A stretch of 64,000 nt of DNA from an uncultured Lachnospiraceae bacterium (GTDB lineage Bacteria > Bacillota > Clostridia > Lachnospirales > Lachnospiraceae): contig ONEK01000006.1 in NCBI GenBank assembly GCA_900316855.1, positions 1 through 64,000 on the forward strand. Direction: 5' to 3'. How positions within the stretch are numbered: position 1 is the first letter of the stretch; the number at the start of each line of letters is the position of its first letter. The translations under genes were made by a program, and so were the position numbers. A model generated the notes under the pieces. It ran no database searches. It was given only the letters and a program-made list of their open reading frames with translations, and was not told the DNA's origin. Shown here in pieces: positions 1-9,580 of this stretch.

Positions 1-122
1 TTGCGGTGCGAGATGCTGTACACGACCTCCGCTTCCTGATAGCGAAGAAACTTTTTACGCAGCTTCTTCACCTCTTCCCGGACTTCTCTTGGTCTTGTGA
101 TGTCCTGATACTCCTGTTCCAT
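1..122 (-). CDS. DUF6462-like small protein, N-terminal part (runs off the window)
   Basis: An ATG at 122 sits six bases after a perfect AGGAGG (129-134). The readable first 40 residues start MEQEYQDITRPREVREE and continue KKLRKKFLRYQEAEVVYS. From memory this matches the start of DUF6462-type small proteins, excisionase-like helix-turn-helix proteins often found on Lachnospiraceae mobile elements. The C-terminus lies outside the window, so neither length nor DNA-binding residues can be checked. The gene is downstream of the stranded lysS fragment, separated by two terminator-like hairpins, so it should have its own transcription. Family assignment is tentative; the existence of the gene is better supported by the ribosome binding site. 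Confidence 0.55.
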   Translation of the reverse strand, partial: MEQEYQDITRPREVREEVKKLRKKFLRYQEAEVVYSISHR

Positions 123-363: not shown

Positions 364-469
364 TCAGACTTTATGCTGTCAACTGTTACGATGTACCGTC
401 ATTTGACTTTTTGTTGCACAAATGTTGTAAATCCGGTGTCACTGCAAAAAATCGGCTTGGATTTGTTGT

Positions 470-495
470 AAAAATCCACAGGTTTTCCGCCTGTG
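470..495 (-). terminator. Intrinsic terminator after the lysS 3' fragment
   Basis: On the minus strand CACAGG (495-490) pairs with CCTGTG (482-477), followed by GATTTTT. It starts 12 bases after the stop codon at 508-510 and is probably the original terminator of the intact lysS gene. Confidence 0.7.
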
Positions 496-507
496 ATTTT
501 CCCCGGA

Positions 508-1007
508 TCAATACAGCTTTGCGCCGGCCGGGATGTGGTTGTCCACCATCAGAAGATGCAGCTCTTCCTCGCCATTTTTCTCGTTGACCGCGGACAGGAG
601 CATGCCGCAGGAGTCGATCCCCATCATCGCTCTCGGCGGGAGATTCGTGATGGCGATCAGAGTCTTTCCGACCAGCTCTTCCGGCTCGTAATAGGCGTGA
701 ATACCGCTTAAAATCACGCGATCCGTGCCCGTTCCGTCGTCCAAAACGAACTTTAAGAGCTTCTTACTCTTCGGAACGGCCGAGCATTCTTTTACCTTCA
801 CCGCCCGGAAATCGGACTTGCTGAAGGTGTCGAAATCGACCTGATCAGCGAACAGCGGTTCAATCTTTACACCGGTAAAATCGATCTTTTCGTTCGGGGT
901 AAAGAACCCGGACTGATCAGAAACAGCCTCGGAACTCTTCTCTTCGCCGGCCTTTTCGTCCGCATGTGCTTCATTGTTTTCAGCCTTGAGGGACTTGAGT
1001 GTCGGGA
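508..1007 (-). pseudogene. lysS: Stranded 3' fragment of lysS: C-terminal tRNA-binding (EMAP/OB-fold) domain of lysyl-tRNA synthetase
   Basis: Reading minus-strand from 1007 gives PTLKSLKAEN, a charged linker, then FDTFSKSDFRAVKVKEC, VPKSKKLLKF, ILSGIHAYYEPEELVGK, MMGIDSCGMLLSA and IPAGAKLY before the TGA at 508-510. This is the EMAP-type tRNA-binding OB-fold found at the C-terminus of some LysRS and MetRS proteins. About 165 codons remain. The sequence at the break, CCGACACTCAAG, matches the last codons of lysS at 8020-8036, so this is the detached tail of that gene, separated by the integrated element. Upstream in frame are stop codons inside the element (near 1050), and there is no in-frame ATG with a ribosome binding site. 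The first GTG, at 801, falls within the OB-fold. The int terminator at 1181-1214 also blocks incoming transcription. It is probably not expressed, although a short protein from the GTG cannot be excluded. Confidence 0.85.
986..1007. repeat. attL: left attachment-site repeat of the element
   Basis: TTGAGGG (986-992), five bases, then AGTGTCGGGA (998-1007). The same two blocks with the same spacing recur at 8015-8036, with 19 of 22 positions identical. Sequence left of this point is lysS coding sequence; sequence right of it is element DNA. Confidence 0.85.
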
Positions 1008-1030
1008 TATTAGGAACGCATATTTCAAGG

Positions 1031-1125
1031 CGTTTCGTCTTATTTCATCATTGCTTGAAATCCGCATAAAATCGGCACTCTCCGAAAAATCCGCCCTGTT
1101 TTCGTTTCGTCTTATTTCATCATTG
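1031..1125. repeat. Pair of perfect 23-bp direct repeats inside the left end
   Basis: Positions 1031-1053 and 1103-1125 are identical; each starts CGTTTCGTCTTATTTC and ends ATCATTG. They lie between the core repeat and the arm-type sites. They may be accessory protein sites (integrase or excisionase) or a relic of an earlier end rearrangement. No gene is present in 1008-1236. Confidence 0.8.
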
Positions 1126-1134
1126 TATTTTTAA

Positions 1135-1166
1135 TTGGTGTAAATATTGGTGTAAATATTGGTGTA
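1135..1166 (+). repeat. Three tandem arm-type sites (TTGGTGTAAA)
   Basis: TTGGTGTAAA at 1135-1144 and 1147-1156 and TTGGTGTA at 1159-1166, one every 12 bases. Two more copies occur near the right end (7934-7943 and 7945-7954), and two inverted copies lie at 2820-2828 and 2832-2840. Direct repeats of this kind near the ends of tyrosine-integrase elements usually bind the integrase N-terminal arm-binding domain. Confidence 0.65.
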
Positions 1167-1180
1167 CACCATCGGCAGCA

Positions 1181-1214
1181 AAAAAGCCGCAACTGTGGGA
1201 TTGTTACGGCTCTT
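1181..1214 (-). terminator. Intrinsic terminator after the integrase gene
   Basis: On the minus strand AGCCGTAAC pairs with GTTGCGGCT across a short loop and is followed by TTTTTTGC. It lies about 20 bases past the int stop codon and would stop int transcripts before they reach attL and the lysS fragment. Confidence 0.75.
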
Positions 1215-1236
1215 GCATCGGTTCTTTATCATCCTG

Positions 1237-2481
1237 TTATGAAATCTTAAATTTGCCCTCCAACTGTTCCATTGTCTGCTGCTTTTTCTCTCTTGTTGCC
1301 TCGGCGTATATATTCATTGTGGTTTGTATATCCTTATGCCCCATAATCTCTTGAATTACCTTTACATTGGTTTCATTCTCACAAAACCTTGTGCAAAATG
1401 TATGCCTCAATTGATGAACGCTGAAATAAGGAACTAAAACCGCCTCTCGATGCTCTTTTTTCGCCTGCTCCTGCTCCTGTTCATTGCAAGCATCCACAAC
1501 ACGCTTTAACGCTCTGTTTAACACACTCGGATTGAATAAACCATTGTATCTATTGGAAAAAATGAAATTGCGGTACTCATTGCCCTGCTCATCATACACA
1601 ACCGCTTTATTCTGTCCGCCTGTCATAAACTGAATACGGCGTTCATCCTGTAATGCTTTTCTAACCTCGGAAAGCATCGGTATTTCACGGCAGCCTGCAC
1701 TTGTTTTCGGCGTTGTAATATGAAACTCGCTCCTGCCCTCGCCGTGCAACTGATAAACGCAATTGTGATTGATACTGATAATGCCGTTTTTGAAATCCAC
1801 ATCATCCCAACGCAAACCGATTAACTCACCCACACGGCAGCCTGTACCCAAAAACACGGTTATAAGGTTTTTCCAATGCCCGAACATATCCGATTGATTG
1901 AGGAAATCAAGAAACCGCTCCTGCTGTGGTACTGTCAAGGCGTGGCGTTGTGTTTTCTCGAAACCGTGGCTTTTCTTTACCTCTGCCATAACTCCATCAC
2001 TCGGATTGCTCCGAATAATGCCATCACGAACGGCAAGCGTTAAAATCGGGTGTATTATGGTATGCACATTATCAATCGTGTTTGCACTCAATCCCTGCTT
2101 TACAAGGCTGTTATAATATGCCTTTACATCAGAATACTTGATTTTAGAAACTTGCTTTTTGCCCAACGCCGTACCCATAACAAAATGCTCATACATATAC
2201 TGATAATTGCCTTTTGTTGTGGCTTTTAACTCCGTTTTGCTCTCCATATATCTATGATACATATCATTGAGGGTTGTTTTCGTATCTGTGGAAATACCAT
2301 CCTCAAGATTGCGTTCTATTTCCTTTTCCATATCTCGCAACTCGGCTAAATCCATAGAATAAATGGTTTTCCTGCTGCCGTTTACATCAGTATAACGGTA
2401 CATATAACGCCCATCGGCTCTTTGGCTCTCACCCTGCCTTAAATTCCTGCCCTTGTTATCTTTTCTCTTGCCTGCTGCCAT
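1237..2481 (-). CDS. int: Tyrosine recombinase / site-specific integrase of the element
   Basis: A 414-residue integrase that should catalyse recombination between attP and the lysS attB site. Residues about 20-45 (RADGRYMYRYTD) form the Tn916-type arm-DNA-binding domain, about 65-165 the SAM-like core-binding domain, and 190-400 the catalytic domain. The catalytic set is visible: R216 (GTGCRVGEL), K259 (TTPKTSAG), H356 and R359 (HQLRH), H382 (GHKD) and the nucleophile Y392 (NIYAEA). Nothing looks damaged, so the enzyme is probably active. The ATG at 2481 follows AGGAGG. The gene is 15 bases downstream of a ribbon-helix-helix gene and shares its promoter, so integration is probably autoregulated through that repressor. 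Confidence 0.95.
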   Translation of the reverse strand: MAAGKRKDNKGRNLRQGESQRADGRYMYRYTDVNGSRKTIYSMDLAELRDMEKEIERNLEDGISTDTKTTLNDMYHRYMESKTELKATTKGNYQYMYEHFVMGTALGKKQVSKIKYSDVKAYYNSLVKQGLSANTIDNVHTIIHPILTLAVRDGIIRSNPSDGVMAEVKKSHGFEKTQRHALTVPQQERFLDFLNQSDMFGHWKNLITVFLGTGCRVGELIGLRWDDVDFKNGIISINHNCVYQLHGEGRSEFHITTPKTSAGCREIPMLSEVRKALQDERRIQFMTGGQNKAVVYDEQGNEYRNFIFSNRYNGLFNPSVLNRALKRVVDACNEQEQEQAKKEHREAVLVPYFSVHQLRHTFCTRFCENETNVKVIQEIMGHKDIQTTMNIYAEATREKKQQTMEQLEGKFKIS

Positions 2482-2496
2482 ATCCTCAACCTCCTG

Positions 2497-2661
2497 TTAT
2501 TTATCAAGCAATAACTGTATTGCCTGCCGTATCGCCTCGCCTTTTGTGATGCCGTGTTTTTCACAATATGCTTTAAGTTTCTGCTCTGTTTCTGCATCCA
2601 TCCGAATACTATATTTTATTTCCTTGGGTTTTTCTGCCCTCGGTCTGCCTGTCCGTGTCAC
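2497..2661 (-). CDS. Small ribbon-helix-helix (CopG-like) DNA-binding protein
   Basis: A 54-residue protein starting at GTG 2661, chosen because GGAGGTGA precedes it by a normal distance. It reads MTRTGRPRAEKPKEIKYSIR, then DAETEQKLKAYCEKHG and ITKGEAIRQAIQLLLDK. The alternating KEIKYSIR strand followed by two helices is the ribbon-helix-helix fold of CopG/Arc repressors, which bind palindromes as dimers through the beta strand. A 9-bp inverted repeat overlaps its own promoter (2690-2721), so it probably represses itself and int. It could also act as a directionality factor. Its position directly before int supports a role in control of excision and integration. Confidence 0.8.
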   Translation of the reverse strand: MTRTGRPRAEKPKEIKYSIRMDAETEQKLKAYCEKHGITKGEAIRQAIQLLLDK

Positions 2662-2689
2662 CTTATCACCTCCATTTTGGTATAATTAT

Positions 2690-2721
2690 TGCCACACATT
2701 TATTATAATTGTTGTGTGGCA
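2690..2721. promoter_or_regulatory. Palindromic operator over the RHH-int promoter
   Basis: TGCCACACA (2690-2698) and TGTGTGGCA (2713-2721) form a perfect 9-bp inverted repeat with a 14-base spacer. One arm lies in the -35/-10 spacer and the other just downstream of the -10 box. A dimeric RHH repressor bound here would block RNA polymerase. Confidence 0.75.
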
Positions 2722-2730
2722 TAAAGTCAA
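2702..2730 (-). promoter_or_regulatory. Sigma-A-type promoter for the RHH-int operon
   Basis: On the minus strand TTGACT (2730-2725), a 17-base spacer, then TATAAT (2707-2702). The boxes are near consensus and overlap the palindrome at 2690-2721. Confidence 0.85.
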
Positions 2731-2819
2731 TAAAAATATGTGCTGTTGTTTAGTCAATTGCACTCATTGGCAGCAGGAAACCTTGTAAAATAAGGCTTTT
2801 CAAGCGTTGTAAGGTATCG

Positions 2820-2840
2820 TTTACACCATAATTTACACCA
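2820..2840 (-). repeat. Two internal arm-type sites in inverted orientation
   Basis: TTTACACCA at 2820-2828 and 2832-2840, the reverse complement of the TTGGTGTAAA repeats at both element ends. Upstream of int they could let the integrase bind and influence its own transcription. Confidence 0.55.
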
Positions 2841-3100
2841 TTTGCCCGAAAAAACGGCTCTCGTTTATGGTTACATCCCCCATATAACGAACGGTTTTCA
2901 TCGGTTTTCGTTTGCATCAGATACACCCCACCCCCTGCAAAAAATCTCCGCTGTTCCTTTTAGGGTGTCGGAATTGTCGGATATATCGCAAGCACCCCTC
3001 AAACCGTCTTATTTTTGCCCATATTGGCACTTTATGGCAGCAGGCATATATTTACCGTGTTCGTGTTTTCGTGGCTCTCTCGGCTTATTCTCGGCTTTAT

Positions 3101-3286
3101 TTACCATCCTTGCGGCAGCGGTACACCCTCCGCATCCATTTTATAAATGGTATTGATTGCGGCTATTCTATCGGCGTTCGTGGTATCTGCTGCCTCCACA
3201 ATCTCAAGCAATGCCTGCCGCATCCGCTTATACTCATCCTCTCTTGCTCTTTTTTCTGCAATTCTCTCTTTGCTTGTTTTTGCCAT
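3101..3286 (-). CDS. Small charged hypothetical protein of the element
   Basis: A 61-residue protein starting MAKTSKERIAEKRAREDE and ending EGVPLPQGW. The ATG at 3286 is preceded by GGAGGTG with seven-base spacing, which favours it over the in-frame ATG further upstream. The N-terminal half is rich in Lys, Arg and Glu and should be a continuous helix, perhaps a short coiled coil. I recognise no family. Its start overlaps the end of the upstream gene (3234-3422) by 53 bases in another frame, so the two are probably translationally coupled. Confidence 0.65.
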   Translation of the reverse strand: MAKTSKERIAEKRAREDEYKRMRQALLEIVEAADTTNADRIAAINTIYKMDAEGVPLPQGW

Positions 3287-3422
3287 CTTTAGCACCTCCG
3301 TTTGTTTCTGTTTCATTTTCCTGCATTATTTCCCATATCTTTATGCAAGCATCCGCATCACCGCTCATTGCTTTATTGAATAAATCCAACGCCTCTTGTA
3401 TTGCCTTTTTGCTCCTGCCCAC
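3234..3422 (-). CDS. Small hypothetical protein of the element
   Basis: A 62-residue protein. The GTG at 3422 lies eight bases after a perfect AGGAGG (3431-3436), which favours it over an earlier GTG that falls inside the Shine-Dalgarno sequence. The first 35 residues (SKKAIQEALDLFNKAMSG, then DADACIKIWEIMQE) should be helical; the tail is Lys/Arg/Asn-rich and is read from DNA that also carries the ribosome binding site and start of the next gene. No family recognised. Order and spacing suggest it belongs to the same transcript as the TerS-like gene. Confidence 0.6.
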   Translation of the reverse strand: MGRSKKAIQEALDLFNKAMSGDADACIKIWEIMQENETETNGGAKDGKNKQRENCRKKSKRG

Positions 3423-3508
3423 AAACAACACCTCCTGTATATCATCCGCAATATGCCCCCCTTTTCATCGGAAAAAATCGGCAAAAATCGGAACTATTGC
3501 GGTTATAT

Positions 3509-3889
3509 TCAAAACTCAAATAAATCAAACGCATTACTCTCTTTTTGTGCCGAAACGCTGTTTTCATCAATGTTTAACCGCTCGGAAAACTTGTTTGCAT
3601 TGTTCAATATGGTTTGTGCTGCCTGCAATCTAATAGCAGGGTTTATTTCATCATCCTGCATAATCGAAACAACAGTTTCAACCGCTGCCCCTATTTGATT
3701 ATTCAATTCAAATATGGCTTTTCTCACCACATCCGCCTTGGCACTCTTATACAATGCCTTAAAATCTCCGCTGCTCATCCTGTCATATATCGTTCGTTCG
3801 GTTACACCAACGGCAGCGGCAGCAGCCTTGATTGTTCCGTTGCTTATCAATGCCGATATAATAACCTCATCAGATATTGTTTTTGCCAT
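3509..3889 (-). CDS. HTH protein resembling small terminase subunits (phBC6A51-type)
   Basis: A 126-residue protein; the ATG at 3889 follows GGAGGTG. Residues about 10-45 form a helix-turn-helix (GTIKAAAAAVGVTERTIYDR). A long helical segment follows (KADVVRKAIFELNNQIGAAV, then ETVVSIMQDDEINPAIRLQA) and an acidic tail. This layout matches the small HTH proteins of Firmicute phages and elements often annotated as phBC6A51 or terminase-small-subunit-like. In PICI satellites a private TerS redirects helper-phage packaging to satellite DNA. That role is inferred from the family resemblance and gene context only. A plain transcriptional regulator is the alternative. No large terminase lies nearby. 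Confidence 0.6.
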   Translation of the reverse strand: MAKTISDEVIISALISNGTIKAAAAAVGVTERTIYDRMSSGDFKALYKSAKADVVRKAIFELNNQIGAAVETVVSIMQDDEINPAIRLQAAQTILNNANKFSERLNIDENSVSAQKESNAFDLFEF

Positions 3890-3891
3890 CG

Positions 3892-4737
3892 TTACACCTC
3901 CAACATTTTATTTGGTTCATATATGCTTGTGCATCCTGCAATTGCTTTTTCAATCGTGATTGCTCCGTATGTTTTCGCACCGTGTCGCTCATCCCATTTT
4001 GACCGCATCAACCCCGATGCTCTAAACATTCTATCCATAACACCGCTGTTGCATCCTGCCCAAAATGCAAGCATATTACACAATGCTAAATCCGCCTCGG
4101 ATTGTGAGGAATAAACACCCTCCCAAAATCCACCGTATAACATATCAAATAGGATGCCGTTTTTGCTTGCTCTCGCCTGCTCAATCAACTCTGCATCATT
4201 CATTGAAATATCGGAAACCCTGCTACATTGGTTCTTTTTTACCTCGGGCGGCAAATACTTTTGATGCAATGGCTTTATGCTCTCCGTGCAATCCACAATC
4301 TCGGAATACTTGGGATTGTATATATTCCCTGTACAAATGAAATAACGCCCCTCGGAATACATTTCAACGCCACCTTTTCGCCTGCTGCCATCGGGCAAAA
4401 CACCCTTGCAAATTATATGCAATCCTGTTCCGCTCCTGCTGTACTCGTTATATGATTGCAAGCCATCAACGAACTCATCACAAAATGCTTTATTCTCTTG
4501 GCAATGGTCTAAATCAACACCAAAATATCCGCCACCCTCACGGAACACAAAACCCACACCATCGAAACCGAATTTCTCGCAAGCCTCAATTGCCTGTTCA
4601 AACGATGCCCAACTATCCGCATTATTACTTTGGGCATTGCCGCCTGTTTTCGGGTTTTTCGGTACTTTGCTACCACACCAACACACCCATTGTGGCAGCA
4701 GGCGTATTTCCTCGGGCAAATTATAAATCTGTTTCAT
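3892..4737 (-). CDS. AEP-type primase-polymerase (NrS-1 polymerase-like)
   Basis: A 281-residue protein from the ATG at 4737, which has AGGAGG upstream and overlaps the previous gene by 17 bases; a further upstream in-frame start lacks a ribosome binding site. The N-terminal half carries the archaeo-eukaryotic primase signature: the metal-binding pair D75 and D77 in YFGVDLDHC, the S-x-H motif in RSGTGLHI (102-107) and the third acidic residue in GGVEMYSEGRYF (about 125). The C-terminal half (SEADLALCNMLAFWAGCN, then FRASGLMRSKWDERHG) matches the helical domain found behind such primases in the phage NrS-1 polymerase group. It should make primers, and perhaps extend DNA, for element replication together with the SF3 helicase upstream. 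Confidence 0.85.
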   Translation of the reverse strand: MKQIYNLPEEIRLLPQWVCWCGSKVPKNPKTGGNAQSNNADSWASFEQAIEACEKFGFDGVGFVFREGGGYFGVDLDHCQENKAFCDEFVDGLQSYNEYSRSGTGLHIICKGVLPDGSRRKGGVEMYSEGRYFICTGNIYNPKYSEIVDCTESIKPLHQKYLPPEVKKNQCSRVSDISMNDAELIEQARASKNGILFDMLYGGFWEGVYSSQSEADLALCNMLAFWAGCNSGVMDRMFRASGLMRSKWDERHGAKTYGAITIEKAIAGCTSIYEPNKMLEV

Positions 4738-4897
4738 TATCCCTTGCCTCCTGCTCCTGTAAACGCTTAATTGCCTGCTCCGCTGCCTCTCTTGTATCAT
4801 AATGAGAATGATATTCTTTGCTCCATCCGTTGCCCTCATCCCTCATTTGGTACACATCAAAACCGCTGCAACCCTTGTAAATCCTGTATTTTTTCAA
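4721..4897 (-). CDS. Small hypothetical protein between helicase and primase genes
   Basis: A 58-residue protein, KKYRIYKGCSGFDVYQMRDE then SHYDTREAAEQAIKRLQEQE. I place the start at the TTG at 4897 because a perfect GGAGGTGA lies five bases before it; the upstream ATG at 4939 has only a weak AGAAAAG. The short beta-rich start followed by a helix suggests a small compact domain, but I recognise no family. Its end overlaps the start of the primase-polymerase gene by 17 bases, so translation of the two is probably coupled. Confidence 0.6.
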   Translation of the reverse strand: MKKYRIYKGCSGFDVYQMRDEGNGWSKEYHSHYDTREAAEQAIKRLQEQEARDNETDL

Positions 4898-4990
4898 TCT
4901 GCTCACCTCCGTTTGTGCATTTTGTGGATTTTCAAACATAACTTTTCTATAATCACTCTCACGGAAAAGTTTAGGTTGAAAATAAACATT

Positions 4991-6424
4991 TTACACATCA
5001 TCCAAAATTGCATACCCTATAATCACATTAGAAACTGTTTTTCCTGCAATCGTGCCTCTTTTCTGCATCAACCCTCTATCTCTCAAGGATGAAAAGAAAA
5101 CACTCTTGCCCTCGGCAGCATAACCATTATCGTTACACCATCCACAATATGCCCTGTGTGCATCCGCTCCGCTTGTGTTCGTGCCTGCTGCCTGTTCCAT
5201 ACAATCATCAAAAAACCGCCGTATCTTATCAGATTGCAATTTATATGTATCTGTTGATGCAAGTACACATTTGGGCGGCTGCTCTCCGTTTTTCTTGAAC
5301 TCTCGCAAACCATCCAACGCCCAATTGAGAACGCTTGAAAGCACCTCCGCCGCCTGCAATTCCTGCTTTAAGTGTTTGTTCTGCTCCTGTGGTTCAAAAT
5401 GCCTGTCAAATGTAATAATTCTCACTCGCTCGGATTGAAACAATGTATCATCCGTTACAACAGGCAAGGAATTACAATTGATGCACATTTTGAATTGTGG
5501 CAAATACTCAAACGGCTCTTGATATAATTTCCTTGCGGAAATCGTTTCACCGCCTGTTAAACTCTTGAATAATGCCACATCAAGCAACATTCTCTTTGGC
5601 GGCTCGGATATATTCAAGAAACGAACTCCTGCAAGCCTTGCAATCTGTGGTGATGCCCCATCACTATTACGGTTCTTTGACATTGCCAATGTTTCGGGCG
5701 GAATTGCTGCCGCATAATCACCCATCATATTACGGAAAGTTTCTGCAAATGTGCTTTTTCCGTTTCTCGTTGTCGCACCGTATAGCATAAAAGCAGCCTC
5801 AAGTGTGGTTTGTGCTGTGAGAAAATATCCGCATATCCTTTGCAAATATCGGCTCTTTTCCTTATCTTCCTGCATAACCTCATCAATAAACTTGCTCCAT
5901 TTTGTACCATCGGCAGCAGGATTATAATTGCATCCGCTCACCTTGGAAAGCATATCCGATGCCCTGTGTTCGTGGCTCTCCATCGTATCTAAATCAAGCG
6001 TACAATTGAGGCAATTGAAAAGGTTATGCTTGCAATCAAAATCCTCTTGGGTTCTTGCCATCAATGACCGTGCATCTTTTACAAGCGTTTCTCTTTTGTT
6101 ATAATTTCCATACTTGAAAATGTATTTCAAAAATGCCTCGCCTTGCTTTTCATCATCAAGCCTGCTGCCGTACAATTTCAAAACCCTGTACATTTCCTTG
6201 GCTTTTTCTGCTGCCTGTACTCCGCCCACATCCTCACGCCAACGGATGCCATCATAATAAAACCATTGTTTCGCCGTGACATTGTAAACCAACTCATCCG
6301 AAAACAACTCGCTATATATCTGTGAAAAATCCATTTCAATATATTCTCGGGTTTTCTCGGGTTGAATATCGCAAACCTTTTTATAAAGGATGCTGTTTCT
6401 CTCGGTCTGTTTCTTATTCTCCAT
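4991..6424 (-). CDS. D5/P4-type replication helicase (SF3 ATPase)
   Basis: A 477-residue protein. The ATG at 6424 is preceded by GAGGTGG and overlaps the upstream gene by 11 bases. Residues about 130-200 are the D5_N region (NCLNCTLDLDTM). The SF3 helicase core follows: Walker A GATTRNGKST (216-225), Walker B around VRFLNISEP (about 267-275) and motif C FKMCINCNSLP (about 311-321). The C-terminus (residues about 390-477) has the winged-helix DNA-binding region usual in this family. P4-like alpha proteins fuse primase and helicase; here the primase is a separate downstream gene. It should unwind the element's origin and drive autonomous replication after excision. Confidence 0.92.
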   Translation of the reverse strand: MENKKQTERNSILYKKVCDIQPEKTREYIEMDFSQIYSELFSDELVYNVTAKQWFYYDGIRWREDVGGVQAAEKAKEMYRVLKLYGSRLDDEKQGEAFLKYIFKYGNYNKRETLVKDARSLMARTQEDFDCKHNLFNCLNCTLDLDTMESHEHRASDMLSKVSGCNYNPAADGTKWSKFIDEVMQEDKEKSRYLQRICGYFLTAQTTLEAAFMLYGATTRNGKSTFAETFRNMMGDYAAAIPPETLAMSKNRNSDGASPQIARLAGVRFLNISEPPKRMLLDVALFKSLTGGETISARKLYQEPFEYLPQFKMCINCNSLPVVTDDTLFQSERVRIITFDRHFEPQEQNKHLKQELQAAEVLSSVLNWALDGLREFKKNGEQPPKCVLASTDTYKLQSDKIRRFFDDCMEQAAGTNTSGADAHRAYCGWCNDNGYAAEGKSVFFSSLRDRGLMQKRGTIAGKTVSNVIIGYAILDDV

Positions 6425-6758
6425 CACTCGCCACCTCATCAAATGCACCCTCAAGGCTCTCTGTGAGGCTCATTTGTCCTTTTATCTGCTTTAAGGTACT
6501 TTTTATTGGTGATGCTGTTTTGAGGCGTGAAAACGCCTGTTTCTGCATCAATCTCACGAACGCTTGCTTTTCGTTCTCATCCGCTGCAAACCAATAACCA
6601 TTTACACCGCTTAAAATCTGTAAACCCTGCTGCCGTGCCTGCCTAACAATATTCTTGGCAGCAGCAGGCGTTGTATTCAATCTCGTTGCTAAATCCTGTT
6701 GATGAATAGCGTTCTCGATGCCAACAGGGATATATTGATATAAATAATTGAAATCCAT
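6414..6758 (-). CDS. Winged-helix-type DNA-binding protein of the replication operon
   Basis: A 114-residue protein; the ATG at 6758 follows CAGGAGGTG, which favours it over the ATG at 6776. The sequence AIHQQDLATRLNTTPAAAKN then VRQARQQGLQIL reads as a helix-turn-helix with a following wing (GVNGYWFAADENE). A Lys-rich tail follows. Its place between the excisionase-like gene and the helicase suggests a replication accessory or regulatory protein. I do not recognise a specific family. It overlaps the helicase gene by 11 bases, so the two are probably translated together. Confidence 0.65.
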   Translation of the reverse strand: MDFNYLYQYIPVGIENAIHQQDLATRLNTTPAAAKNIVRQARQQGLQILSGVNGYWFAADENEKQAFVRLMQKQAFSRLKTASPIKSTLKQIKGQMSLTESLEGAFDEVASDGE

Positions 6759-6775
6759 ATAAAACACCTCCTGCA

Positions 6776-6979
6776 TTACTCCGTTGCTATGCTATCAAGG
6801 TATCTTTGCACCTTGTTTACATTCCACAAAATCCGCTTGCCCATTTGGATTTTTGCTCCTGCTGCCTCGCCGATTTTAACCGCTGTACTCCTGCCACAAT
6901 CAAGGCACTCCGCCAATGTTTCGGTATTGGCTGTCAATCGGTCTGATAACTGAATAACATTGCTTGCGGTTTTATTCAT
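6776..6979 (-). CDS. Excisionase-like small HTH protein
   Basis: A 67-residue protein starting MNKTASNVIQLSDRL at ATG 6979, six bases after GGAGGTG. The core, ETLAECLDCGRSTAVKIGEA then GAKIQMGKRILWNVNKVQRY, has the excisionase/MerR-like layout of a short helix-turn-helix followed by a basic wing and a terminal helix. Such proteins bend attachment-site DNA and direct tyrosine integrases toward excision. Its place second in the early operon, far from int, is usual in satellites and prophages. A transcription-factor role is possible instead. Confidence 0.7.
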   Translation of the reverse strand: MNKTASNVIQLSDRLTANTETLAECLDCGRSTAVKIGEAAGAKIQMGKRILWNVNKVQRYLDSIATE

Positions 6980-7166
6980 TGCCAACACCTCCGCCCTTGG
7001 ATGCTATCTCATCAACATATACTTTGAATTGCTCTGCATCCTCTTTTGAAAACTCTTTTCTCAATTTCCTGCTAAATGCCGCATCCGTGATGCCGAATTT
7101 TTCGGCTACTTGCCACAACCTCACACCTTTACTCGCTGCATATAGTTTCAATTCTCTGTTGTTCAT
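6972..7166 (-). CDS. Cro-like small HTH regulator, first gene of the early operon
   Basis: A 64-residue protein starting MNNRELKLYAASKG at ATG 7166, with AGGAGG five bases upstream. VRLWQVAEKFGITDAAFSRK is a helix-turn-helix and the remainder a helical tail. It is the first gene of the minus-strand operon, divergent from the CI-like repressor at 7297. That arrangement resembles a cI/cro switch. It overlaps the next gene by eight bases. Confidence 0.7.
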   Translation of the reverse strand: MNNRELKLYAASKGVRLWQVAEKFGITDAAFSRKLRKEFSKEDAEQFKVYVDEIASKGGGVGNE

Positions 7167-7213
7167 TGCATACCTCCTATTGAATTATTGCTATAACTTT
7201 GTTATACTCATAT

Positions 7214-7239
7214 TGTAAACAATGTTATTGTTGTTTACA
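7214..7239. promoter_or_regulatory. Palindromic operator between the divergent regulator genes
   Basis: TGTAAACAA (7214-7222) and TTGTTTACA (7231-7239) form a perfect 9-bp inverted repeat with an eight-base spacer. It lies in the 130-bp gap between the Cro-like and CI-like genes, where promoters for both directions must sit. It is the likely binding site of the CI-like and/or Cro-like protein. The promoter boxes themselves are not clear enough to call. Confidence 0.7.
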
Positions 7240-7296
7240 CTCTGCAAATAAACCCTCTTTTGAGGTATGTTTTGTTAGAATTGGAGGCAAATTATT

Positions 7297-7857
7297 ATGA
7301 AAAATGAGGCAATTTATAACAAAGAACTCGCAAAAAGGTTTAGAACATTGAGAGAGGATGCCGAACTAACGCAAGAACAACTCGCATCAAAATTACACAT
7401 TAGCCATGTTCAAGTCTATAATTACGAAAAAGCACGGCGGCGAATAACCGAACAAACCGCCGATTTAATGGCAATGATATTTAGTATTGATGCAAGTTAT
7501 CTCTTGGATGAAACTGTTAAATATAGAACGGCAGCGGAAAAATTCAAAACAGAATTTCAAACCGCAATAAATGAAAGCAATCAAGAGGCATATTATATGT
7601 ATAATGCTATCTGCTGCCTTGCGGCTCTCAATGGCTATACTGTGGAAATAAAAGGGAAATCAGATATTGCAAACGATGTTAGAAAAGTATTATCAACAGG
7701 CAAAGGAAAAATAGGCGATAGTTTCAAGGAATATATGGTTTTCTATCGGAACGGCAAAAAAGAGTTTTCTTTATCTCTTGAGGATGCAAACCATTTTGGA
7801 AACCACATCAACGATATTTTCTTATCACACATCAAGTGGAATGTAAAAACAGAATAG
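7297..7857 (+). CDS. XRE-family repressor (CI/Stl-like) of the element
   Basis: A 186-residue protein; the ATG at 7297 follows TTGGAGGC. Residues about 10-65 are a Cro/CI helix-turn-helix (LREDAELTQEQLASKLHISH, then QVYNYEKARRRI). The remaining 120 residues are a domain I do not recognise, with no S24 peptidase motif. RecA-stimulated self-cleavage is therefore unlikely, and derepression by a protein from a helper phage, as for PICI Stl, is conceivable. It is the only plus-strand gene of the element and has its own terminator at 7896-7925. Confidence 0.85.
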   Translation: MKNEAIYNKELAKRFRTLREDAELTQEQLASKLHISHVQVYNYEKARRRITEQTADLMAMIFSIDASYLLDETVKYRTAAEKFKTEFQTAINESNQEAYYMYNAICCLAALNGYTVEIKGKSDIANDVRKVLSTGKGKIGDSFKEYMVFYRNGKKEFSLSLEDANHFGNHINDIFLSHIKWNVKTE

Positions 7858-7895
7858 GCAGCAGGCGTATAATTTGCCTCCTGCATCATAAGAAA

Positions 7896-7925
7896 AACCC
7901 CTGCTCCATCGGCAAGGGTTTTTTG
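7896..7925 (+). terminator. Intrinsic terminator after the CI-like gene
   Basis: AACCCCTGC (7896-7904) pairs with GCAAGGGTT (7912-7920) and is followed by TTTTTG. It stands 38 bases past the stop codon. Confidence 0.8.
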
Positions 7926-7933
7926 TTTGGCAA

Positions 7934-7954
7934 TTGGTGTAAAATTGGTGTAAA
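7934..7954 (+). repeat. Two tandem arm-type sites near the right end
   Basis: TTGGTGTAAA at 7934-7943 and 7945-7954, the same word as the three copies at 1135-1166. Their presence at both ends of the element supports an integrase arm-binding role. Confidence 0.65.
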
Positions 7955-7959
7955 TCCAT

Positions 7960-7993
7960 AAAAATAAGGCTCTCCAAAACCTCGGAAAGCCTT
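7960..7993 (-). terminator. Terminator supplied by the element downstream of truncated lysS
   Basis: On the minus strand AAGGCTTTCC (7993-7984) pairs with GGAGAGCCTT (7975-7966), followed by ATTTTT. It begins 17 bases past the new lysS stop codon and lies within the element. Confidence 0.75.
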
Positions 7994-8010
7994 GATTTAT
8001 AAGTATTTTC

Positions 8011-9543
8011 TTAATTGAGGGTTTTTAGTGTCGGGAATAACAATACATCGCGGATGGCGGCGCTGTTGGTGAACAGCATGACCATGCGGTCGATGCCGTA
8101 TCCGATGCCGCCCGTGGGAGGCATGCCGATTTCCATGGCATGCAGGAAGTCCTCGTCAGTATGCTCGGCTTCCTCATCGCCTGCTGCCGCATTGGCATCC
8201 TGCGCCGCAAAGCGCTCCCTCTGGTCGATGGGATCGTTCAACTCGGAGTAGGCGTTGCACATCTCCCAGCCGTTGATATACAGCTCGAAGCGCTCGACCT
8301 TGGAGGGGTCGTCGGGCTTTTTCTTCGTCAGCGGAGAGATCTCAATCGGATGATCCATGATGAACGTCGGCTGGATCATCTTGTCCTCGCAGAAGGCATC
8401 AAAGAAGAGGTTTACGATATCGCCCTTTTTGTGGCGCGCCTCATATTCCACGTGATGCTCGTCGGCAAGCTTCTTCGCCTCCTCATCGGTCTGCACCTCA
8501 TCGAAGTTGATACCGGTTTCTTCCCTGATGGCATCAACCATCGTGAGCCTGCGGAAGGGCTTCGAGAAATCGATCTGCCGGTCACCGTAGGTAATGACAT
8601 CCGTGTGGCAGATTTTCTCGGCGATGTCCTTGTAGAGGGACTCGGTCAGCTCCATCATACCGTTGTAATCCGTGTACGCCTGATACAGCTCCATGAGCGT
8701 GAATTCCGGGTTGTGCCGGGTATCCGTGCCCTCGTTGCGGAAGACACGGCCGATCTCATAGACGCGCTCCAAGCCGCCTACAATCAGCCTCTTCAGGTAC
8801 AGCTCCAGGGAAATGCGGAGCTTCCTGTCCTCATCGAGGGCGTTGTAGTGCGTGATGAACGGACGCGCACTCGCACCGCCGGCGTTCTCGACCAGCATGG
8901 GGGTCTCGACCTCCATGAAGTCGCGTCCTGCGAGGAAGCTGCGGATCTCCGCAATGATGGCGGACCGCTTCTTGAACGTCTCGCGCACTCCCTCATTCAT
9001 GATGAGGTCGACGTATCTCTGACGGTACCGGGTATCTGTATCCGTCAGTCCGTGGAACTTCTCCGGAAGCGGCTCAAGCGACTTCGACAGCAGTGTCAGG
9101 GACTGTACATGAACGGAGATCTCACCTGTTTTCGTCTTAAACGGAAAACCCTTGATACCGATGATGTCGCCGATGTCCATGTGCTTGAACTCCGCATAGG
9201 GCTCATCGCCCAGGTCATTGCGGCTGACATAGAACTGGATGCGGCCGTCGCGGTCCTGCAGGTTGCCGAACGAAGCCTTGCCCATGACGCGCTTGCTCAT
9301 CATGCGTCCTGCAAGGGATACCGTCGCCGGATCCTTCGTGTAGTTTCCCTCCTCGTCCAGCTCGCCACACAGGGAATCGAACTGGTCCTTCACCTGCTGC
9401 GTGTGATACGTCTGGTCATAGGTGGTAATCCGGAAGGGATCCTTTCCCTCTGCCTGAAGGGCGGAAAGCTTCTCGCGCCTTACCTTCTTCAGCTGGTTAA
9501 TGTCCTGCGCGGGCTGTTCCTGCTTCGACTTGTTCTCTCCCAT
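8011..9543 (-). CDS. lysS: Lysyl-tRNA synthetase, class II, truncated to the catalytic core by the element
   Basis: Charges tRNA-Lys with lysine in the cytoplasm. The 510-residue product has the N-terminal anticodon-binding OB-fold (AGRMMSKRVMGKASFGNLQD region) and the class II core with VGGLERVYEIGRVFRNEGTD, RHNPEFTLMELYQAY and the C-terminal motif 3 region GGIGYGIDRMVMLF. It ends IRDVLLFPTLKTLN. The final codons from about 8027 down are element DNA: the normal continuation (PTLKSLKAEN and the tRNA-binding domain) is found at 508-1007. The remaining length equals that of ordinary bacterial LysRS, so the enzyme should be functional, perhaps with weaker tRNA binding. ATG 9543 follows AGAGAGGA; an ATG at 9558 is also possible. 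It lies downstream of greA. Confidence 0.95.
   Translation of the reverse strand: MGENKSKQEQPAQDINQLKKVRREKLSALQAEGKDPFRITTYDQTYHTQQVKDQFDSLCGELDEEGNYTKDPATVSLAGRMMSKRVMGKASFGNLQDRDGRIQFYVSRNDLGDEPYAEFKHMDIGDIIGIKGFPFKTKTGEISVHVQSLTLLSKSLEPLPEKFHGLTDTDTRYRQRYVDLIMNEGVRETFKKRSAIIAEIRSFLAGRDFMEVETPMLVENAGGASARPFITHYNALDEDRKLRISLELYLKRLIVGGLERVYEIGRVFRNEGTDTRHNPEFTLMELYQAYTDYNGMMELTESLYKDIAEKICHTDVITYGDRQIDFSKPFRRLTMVDAIREETGINFDEVQTDEEAKKLADEHHVEYEARHKKGDIVNLFFDAFCEDKMIQPTFIMDHPIEISPLTKKKPDDPSKVERFELYINGWEMCNAYSELNDPIDQRERFAAQDANAAAGDEEAEHTDEDFLHAMEIGMPPTGGIGYGIDRMVMLFTNSAAIRDVLLFPTLKTLN
8015..8036. repeat. attR: right attachment-site repeat of the element
   Basis: TTGAGGG (8015-8021), five bases, then AGTGTCGGGA (8027-8036), matching 986-1007 at 19 of 22 positions. 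On the coding strand it spells the last lysS codons and includes the element-provided stop TAA just left of it. Confidence 0.85.
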
Positions 9544-9580
9544 AATGTCCTCTCTCATGGCCTGCCCTGCAGGCCTTCAT

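Follow-up and report, generated by a model that had tools for sequence, protein, structure and literature searches.

The stretch of DNA analyzed here, 64,000 nucleotides of contig ONEK01000006.1 from an uncultured Lachnospiraceae bacterium (referred to as the window), carries a lysS gene, for lysyl-tRNA synthetase (LysRS), whose catalytic part is separated by an integrated element from a C-terminal tail made up of a linker and a tRNA-binding domain. Judged by its sequence, the split is real and site specific. Our combined results suggest that elements at the lysS site are probably carriers, which through site-specific recombination would take the LysRS tail away, give it back, or put another in its place. 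With slightly less confidence, we also favor the broader view that lysS in the Clostridia is a site of C-terminal domain exchange, at which elements resembling integrative and conjugative elements (ICEs), satellite-like elements, and Rep-bearing elements share an attachment core and trade the tRNA-binding domain across families, some of them with arm sites read in frame as linker, so that the last-arrived element sets the architecture of the enzyme. The split itself, the in-frame empty site, the like repeats at the element ends, and elements elsewhere with short, long, or second-copy lysS ends are all there to be read in the DNA. An earlier note on this stretch had described the split as an element dividing lysS; its observation is confirmed and its interpretation is partly supported.

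The lysS gene (8011..9558, minus strand) encodes a complete LysRS catalytic enzyme of 515 amino acids, which exceeds the curated thresholds of two LysRS models, NF001756 and TIGR00499, and is thus a class II LysRS. It ends in FPTLKTLN and a stop, the last codons being supplied by the element as had been proposed, and one terminator-like hairpin lies behind this short end (7966..7993, minus strand; 0.4 expected by chance), in line with the terminator claimed there before. A second lysS in the strain was ruled out, the three other matches of the catalytic core being 25 to 33% identical pieces of other frames. Repeat searches placed one attachment core on the lysS side (attL, 8015..8036), at the site of the 13-bp lysS repeat of vanD islands, and one on the tail side (attR, 986..1007), neither with an assigned strand. 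With up to two mismatches allowed, the pattern TTGAGGG-N5-AGTGTCGGGA, read on the plus strand, occurs at exactly two sites in the window, both of them cores (0.02 expected in shuffles), which rules out chance as the source of the repeat; the shared repeat noticed earlier is therefore borne out, with its lysS-side start corrected from 8011 to 8015. The two cores are identical at 19 of 22 bases and differ at three, as read from the sequence, form a direct repeat where lysS encodes FPT[M/L]K, and are 7,029 bp apart, as a site-specific insertion would leave them. When the flanks were joined at TCCCGACACT, the computed empty site encoded an in-frame LysRS of 673 amino acids, close to the 675 or so foreseen, and this protein matched, end to end, four uninterrupted long LysRS of same-genus genomes (86% identity to G020, 83% to G023, 78% to G011, and 75% to G035; G and L numbers are our labels for genomes and loci). 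Repeat comparison found three TTTACACCAAT-type copies on the integrase side (1133..1168) and two on the lysS side (7932..7955), no strand being assigned, as would be expected of integrase arm sites; the longest word common to the two ends, 13 bp, was reached in 2 of 500 shuffles.

The displaced tail (508..1007, minus strand) was delimited by profile and alignment. The fragment 508-1044 on the same strand matches tRNA_bind (PF01588) above the cut-off over profile positions 2-96 of 96 (E 2e-23). Its best matches in same-genus genomes are 64 to 95% identical, whereas the strain's only other match, a 686-amino-acid frame taken to be its methionyl-tRNA synthetase (MetRS), reaches 47% over 113 amino acids; a piece of metG is thereby ruled out, and the assignment of the fragment to LysRS C termini stands. 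Comparison with G020 gave a dN of 0.030 and a dS of 0.547 (dN/dS about 0.06), mean column identity across 13 sequences was 63%, and by its substitution pattern the tail is a sequence that has been under purifying selection. The corresponding ratio for G023 was set aside, its codons having been misaligned. As an orphan, it is probably not made in full. Its first in-frame start, GTG 801, lies where the Pfam match begins, some 13 conserved residues inside the aligned domain, and has no obvious ribosome-binding site; a promoter search upstream of the orphan tail gave one promoter-like site, no more than chance. In G020, G001, and the Gemmiger locus described below, the attachment core itself provides an ATG for the tail.

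Behind the tail stop lie two TTTACAAC repeats (424..472, no strand assigned, by repeat comparison) and then the start of a DUF6462-type open reading frame (ORF) (3..122, minus strand, by profile), cut by the contig end; the same order of tail, repeats, and DUF6462 is found in G020, in which two tails lie 3.7 kb apart. A search for sequence behind window base 1 recovered the cut DUF6462-type ORF alone. Because the TTTACAAC repeats differ from the arms of the window element, the tail likely came with another element, and because these repeats and the DUF6462-type ORF follow it in the order seen in G020, we infer that two elements are stacked in the window, of which the newer gives the short LysRS and the other owns the tail. 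In the mechanism that we propose, crossover would take place within FPT[M/L]K, with the incoming element providing the codons that follow. An element bringing a few codons would produce a short LysRS, one bringing a linker and a tRNA_bind domain would produce a long LysRS, and the older lysS 3' end would be pushed to the far side of the newcomer. The idea that the tail was simply the host's own and had been discarded is not supported in that form, as tails are exchanged between lineages and carried by other elements, and repeats of another type lie behind the tail in the window.

Elements elsewhere that have both ends in view sit at the same lysS codons as the window element, and each can be assigned a direction of change. 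In Gemmiger (L172), lysS ends in PLDK and a stop, followed by a 9.5-kb element with a 46%-identical integrase and then by a tail with its own ATG; like the window, this arrangement is best read as long to short, with the tail removed. In Roseburia (L158), a tail is fused to lysS, SLDK and a stop come after the far core, and TTATAACACA repeats are found both behind the tail and beside the integrase, an order best read as short to long, with a tail added to a short LysRS. Pseudobutyrivibrio xylanivorans DSM 14809 (L137), a strain from the rumen, has, in order, a fused tail, the element, its integrase, and a second tail, best read as long to long, with a new tail installed in front of the old one. 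A related metagenome-assembled genome (L136) carries two integrase-tail pairs in tandem, and in G404 a fused tail is followed after about 19 kb by a related integrase and, beyond this, by a second tail. A scan of named genomes found at least 511 tail relatives, and its locus-level results cover the best 80 of these, picked by tail similarity; in 11 of the 80, an unfused tail has a related integrase upstream of it, in one case 1.6 kb away.

In L137, a 19-bp stretch of the linker-coding sequence of LysRS is identical to the integrase-side repeat (0 of 500 shuffles), and L136 has a 10-bp match of the same kind (20 of 500 shuffles); in both, an arm site close behind the core is likely translated as linker. 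Separately, the linkers DGVN and DVNN of L210 (G312) and L217 (G123) are GGTGTAAAT and GATGTAAAT read in frame and resemble post-tail TTACATCA repeats, a resemblance that carries no statistics.

Catalytic core and tail appear to have evolved apart. Core identity and tail identity were nearly unrelated (r 0.16, 231 pairs) among 22 long LysRS, of which the core had led to 15 and the genus contributed 7, and which remained from 27 loci once two tail-less and three contig-end-cut loci had been left out. The corresponding value for 66 fused proteins (2 of 68 were dropped, having no core motif) was r 0.25 over 2,145 pairs, which we do not use as proof because those loci were picked by tail similarity. 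At the protein level, the tail domain of G203 is 100% identical to its counterparts in G123 and G312, whereas its core is 59% identical to theirs, and the three genomes belong to three families. At the DNA level, G123 and G312 are 65 to 82% identical up to the attachment core, 95 to 99% from the core through the tail to about 150 bp past the stop, and at most 52% beyond; the block of identity thus starts at the recombination core, as site-specific exchange predicts. An unfused tail, L133, has 95 to 100% DNA identity to G123 across the same core-to-tail block, and the block in G203 is more diverged (mostly 83 to 87%, linker 64%). L118, which is labelled Atopobium, has a tail domain 95.5% identical in protein to that of G020 and a core at 46%; this transfer was not recent, since the tail DNA is only 79% identical to that of G020. 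As a further observation, L077 (G015:C386) and L076 (G034) have DNA cores about 60% identical, tails 77 to 79% identical, and flanks past the stop 95 to 96% identical over 500 bp, like element ends with different tails.

The distribution of long and short forms is patchy. Strong tail matches (E below 1e-40) were found in 15 of the 62 genomes sampled from the genus; the tail is fused to LysRS in, for example, G020, G023, G011, G035, G052, G021, and G024, and is unjoined to a core in G000, G001, G040, and G050 and in second copies in G020 and G046. The earlier note had named relatives with a short lysS and a separate tail gene as telling against its reading; many genus genomes do have a short lysS, which tells against that reading in part, though in most of them no tail gene occurs at all. 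The last codons of the genus short lysS genes vary, and repeats, usually 38 to 56 bp past the stop and mostly 11 to 12 bp apart, follow in 13 of 22 cases (1.7 expected; 2 of 24 loci were left out, their flanks being too short). Such repeats lie behind short lysS in 10 of 16 cases from the class sample (1.6 expected) and in 2 of 8 order outgroups (0.9 expected), and behind tails in 27 of 95 (9.8 expected). ParA-like genes come next after the short-lysS repeats in five of nine loci examined, with a Pfam check on one (L116), as they would at the end of a large element, and G050 has ParA and ParB genes about 2.3 kb past its unjoined tail. LysRS was matched in 371 of 392 genomes of the class survey, where 22 frames of 600 or more stood among the 150 places listed; 20 of these 22 have the tail, 3 of them cut by a contig end, and G099 and G437 do not. 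In genus g160, G275 is long and G315 and G397 are short. The 24 order relatives comprised 20 full-length frames of 491 to 535, one of 651, and three partial ones. Viral contigs gave tails at seven loci, of which L198 is a fused LysRS and the rest are distant. Three side observations belong here: L114 (G044) and L115 (G048) repeat roughly the last 30 lysS codons once or twice more, in partial form, about 1 kb downstream, like stacked attachment sites; the element beside the orphan tail of G040 (L068:12302-15966) has genes that, judged by eye, resemble an AbiEi/AbiEii pair and MobC/relaxase; and a near-identical small gene pair, toxin-antitoxin-like, lies near the orphan tails of G020 and G001 (L065:7002-7596 and L078:2361-3021).

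Several points weigh against exchange by carrier elements as the general explanation. The assembly of the window ends before the region beyond its tail is reached, and most of the genus is without a tail. The repeats of L158 and G020 follow the tail, about 500 bp from the core and so farther than usual, and are weaker in shuffles (10 of 500 and 33 of 500; the longest common word to which the G020 value refers is not the repeat itself); the far core of G404 is not clean. A search downstream of lysS in 20 short-lysS genus loci gave no related integrase, and a second lysS end in L114 and L115 alone, which leaves the far ends of these elements out of view. As to the ancestral form, the mostly short frames of the order relatives stand against the many tail relatives of the genome scan. 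One alternative, which we consider unlikely, is that the long LysRS is the inherited form of the host, which the window element alone made short, and that the tail is immobile. The abundance of tail relatives in the genome scan, the end-to-end match of the joined window flanks to long LysRS of the same genus, and the fused tails without repeats behind them in G023, G035, G052, and G021 would all suit it. Against it stand the near lack of relation between tail and core identity, the jump in DNA identity at the core between families, the tail-carrying elements elsewhere, and the fact that the window tail is followed by repeats of a different type.

A quite improbable variant accepts exchange as real and regards it as a harmless, neutral scar, with a dispensable tail and, in the window, a decaying remnant. 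The start at GTG 801, which would omit the conserved residues at the beginning of the domain, agrees with this, as do degraded tails in G046, G032:C23, and G015:C172 and the report that the EMAPII-like domain of Entamoeba LysRS is dispensable for aminoacylation (PMC3226552), whereas the conservation of the tail, its low dN/dS against G020, and its carriage by several elements do not. We give very little weight to two separate attachment sites, one at the lysS core and one at the 3' end of the tail, the post-tail repeats marking the second and tails not being carried: repeats do lie at a similar distance past the stop in short and long genes, but the far end in L158 and L137 shows the lysS core and not the end of the tail, and the repeat of L137 and L136 falls inside the linker. 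That an assembly error joined the element to lysS is hardly credible, for although many genus contigs end at the lysS site, the window runs unbroken through both junctions with a core at each, and the arrangement recurs in other genera with other elements. The contigs of G002, G014, G018, G032, G375, G268, and G447 stop at the lysS core or within the tail, as would happen if the genome had nearly identical copies at other places.

The element in the window itself looks like a phage satellite of the phage-inducible chromosomal island (PICI) kind. On the minus strand it encodes a tyrosine integrase with a Tn916-type DNA-binding domain (1237..2481), a terminase-small-subunit (TerS)-like protein (3509..3889), a primase-like protein with an NrS-1-type HBD domain (3892..4839), a helicase-primase of the P4 family (D5_N, DUF5906; 4991..6427), and three small ORFs found through the ORF list and profile scans (6414-6776, 6776-6988, and 6972-7166, together 6414..7166), the first with a weak match to a phage family of unknown function; a divergent helix-turn-helix regulator lies on the plus strand (7297..7857). 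Profile matches identify the integrase, primase, helicase, and regulator; the TerS-like assignment is a weak match to phrog_2538 (E 1e-6), and Pfam and NCBIfam scans gave no terminase match. Conjugation, capsid, and portal families had no match among the 10 element proteins scanned, and the element, lysS-integrating as it is, is therefore no ICE. The satellite set of integrase, primase-helicase, divergent regulator, and no capsid genes is present among these proteins. PICI-type satellites are small and carry an integrase, a primase, a regulator, and a TerS-like gene, with no capsid genes. The window element has the small size, the integrase, the primase, the regulator, and the lack of capsid genes in common with them, has a candidate for the TerS-like gene, and differs in its 7-kb length, its weak TerS match, and the position of its integrase at the end away from the regulator. 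Its helicase was matched in 2 of the 62 genus genomes, one being the window itself and the other 34% identical, and had no match in the viral contigs searched. Within 3892-6427, the helicase and primase-like domains occupy separate genes, helicase first, and the matched phage families have both in one protein.

The usual view is that elements integrating at specific sites make use of the ends of genes and leave the host protein as it was. If our reading is correct, mobile DNA decides which form of an essential enzyme the cell makes, the domain make-up of a translation enzyme is altered in both directions, and a domain is moved between distant bacteria. The patchy LysRS lengths in the Clostridia would be explained, and a way would be shown for a protein domain to spread independently of its enzyme. 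Long and short LysRS would also provide natural pairs with which to study the role of an EMAP-type tail in a synthetase.

A search of the tail profile against solved structures gave 19 hits, among which the best relatives by sequence are MetRS domains and Trbp111; the only LysRS entries, 4up7 and 4up8, are presumably those of Entamoeba. The domain family of Trbp111 and the MetRS C terminus is the same as that of the LysRS tail, but there the domain is free-standing or on MetRS, and we know of no exchange of it by mobile elements. Entamoeba LysRS has a C-terminal tRNA_bind-type domain, as do the long LysRS described here; this EMAPII-like tail was described there as the first of its kind (PMC3226552). 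By that precedent, the tail is suggested to be possibly dispensable for tRNA-Lys charging. Entamoeba is a eukaryote, and the account of its LysRS, where it deals with this domain, does not mention mobile elements (PMC3226552).

Integration in lysS is already known. The vanD islands of enterococci, which bear an integrase and vanD, measure 112 to 143 kb, and in the largest case have conjugation genes, occupy the 3' end of lysS and are flanked by 13-bp repeats, TTCCC[g/a/c]AC[a/g]ATGA (PMC8301612, PMC10765050). By eye, the window cores match this consensus at 11 and 10 of 13 bases, and vanD islands and ICEs share with the window element the lysS codons and an integrase at one end. They are far larger than the 7-kb element, and their accounts, as far as these concern the insertion, describe disruption of lysS and no loss or gain of a LysRS domain. 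Streptococcal ICEs likewise have tyrosine integrases and direct repeats of 13 to 17 bp within the lysS 3' end, as does the window element in kind, and their authors inferred minimal impact on the host gene in the part of the report that treats this site (PMC4701971); in the window, by contrast, a whole domain is parted from the enzyme. In the open-access library searched, no paper was found in which integration at lysS is connected with a LysRS domain being lost, gained, or exchanged, and as far as these searches reach, the trading of an entire LysRS domain by mobile elements is apparently undescribed and new. In shufflons, and in phages that supply an alternative 3' end to icd, site-specific recombination changes the C terminus of a protein. 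The process proposed for lysS would be of the same kind, but what is gained, lost, or swapped across lineages there would be the whole RNA-binding domain of a synthetase.

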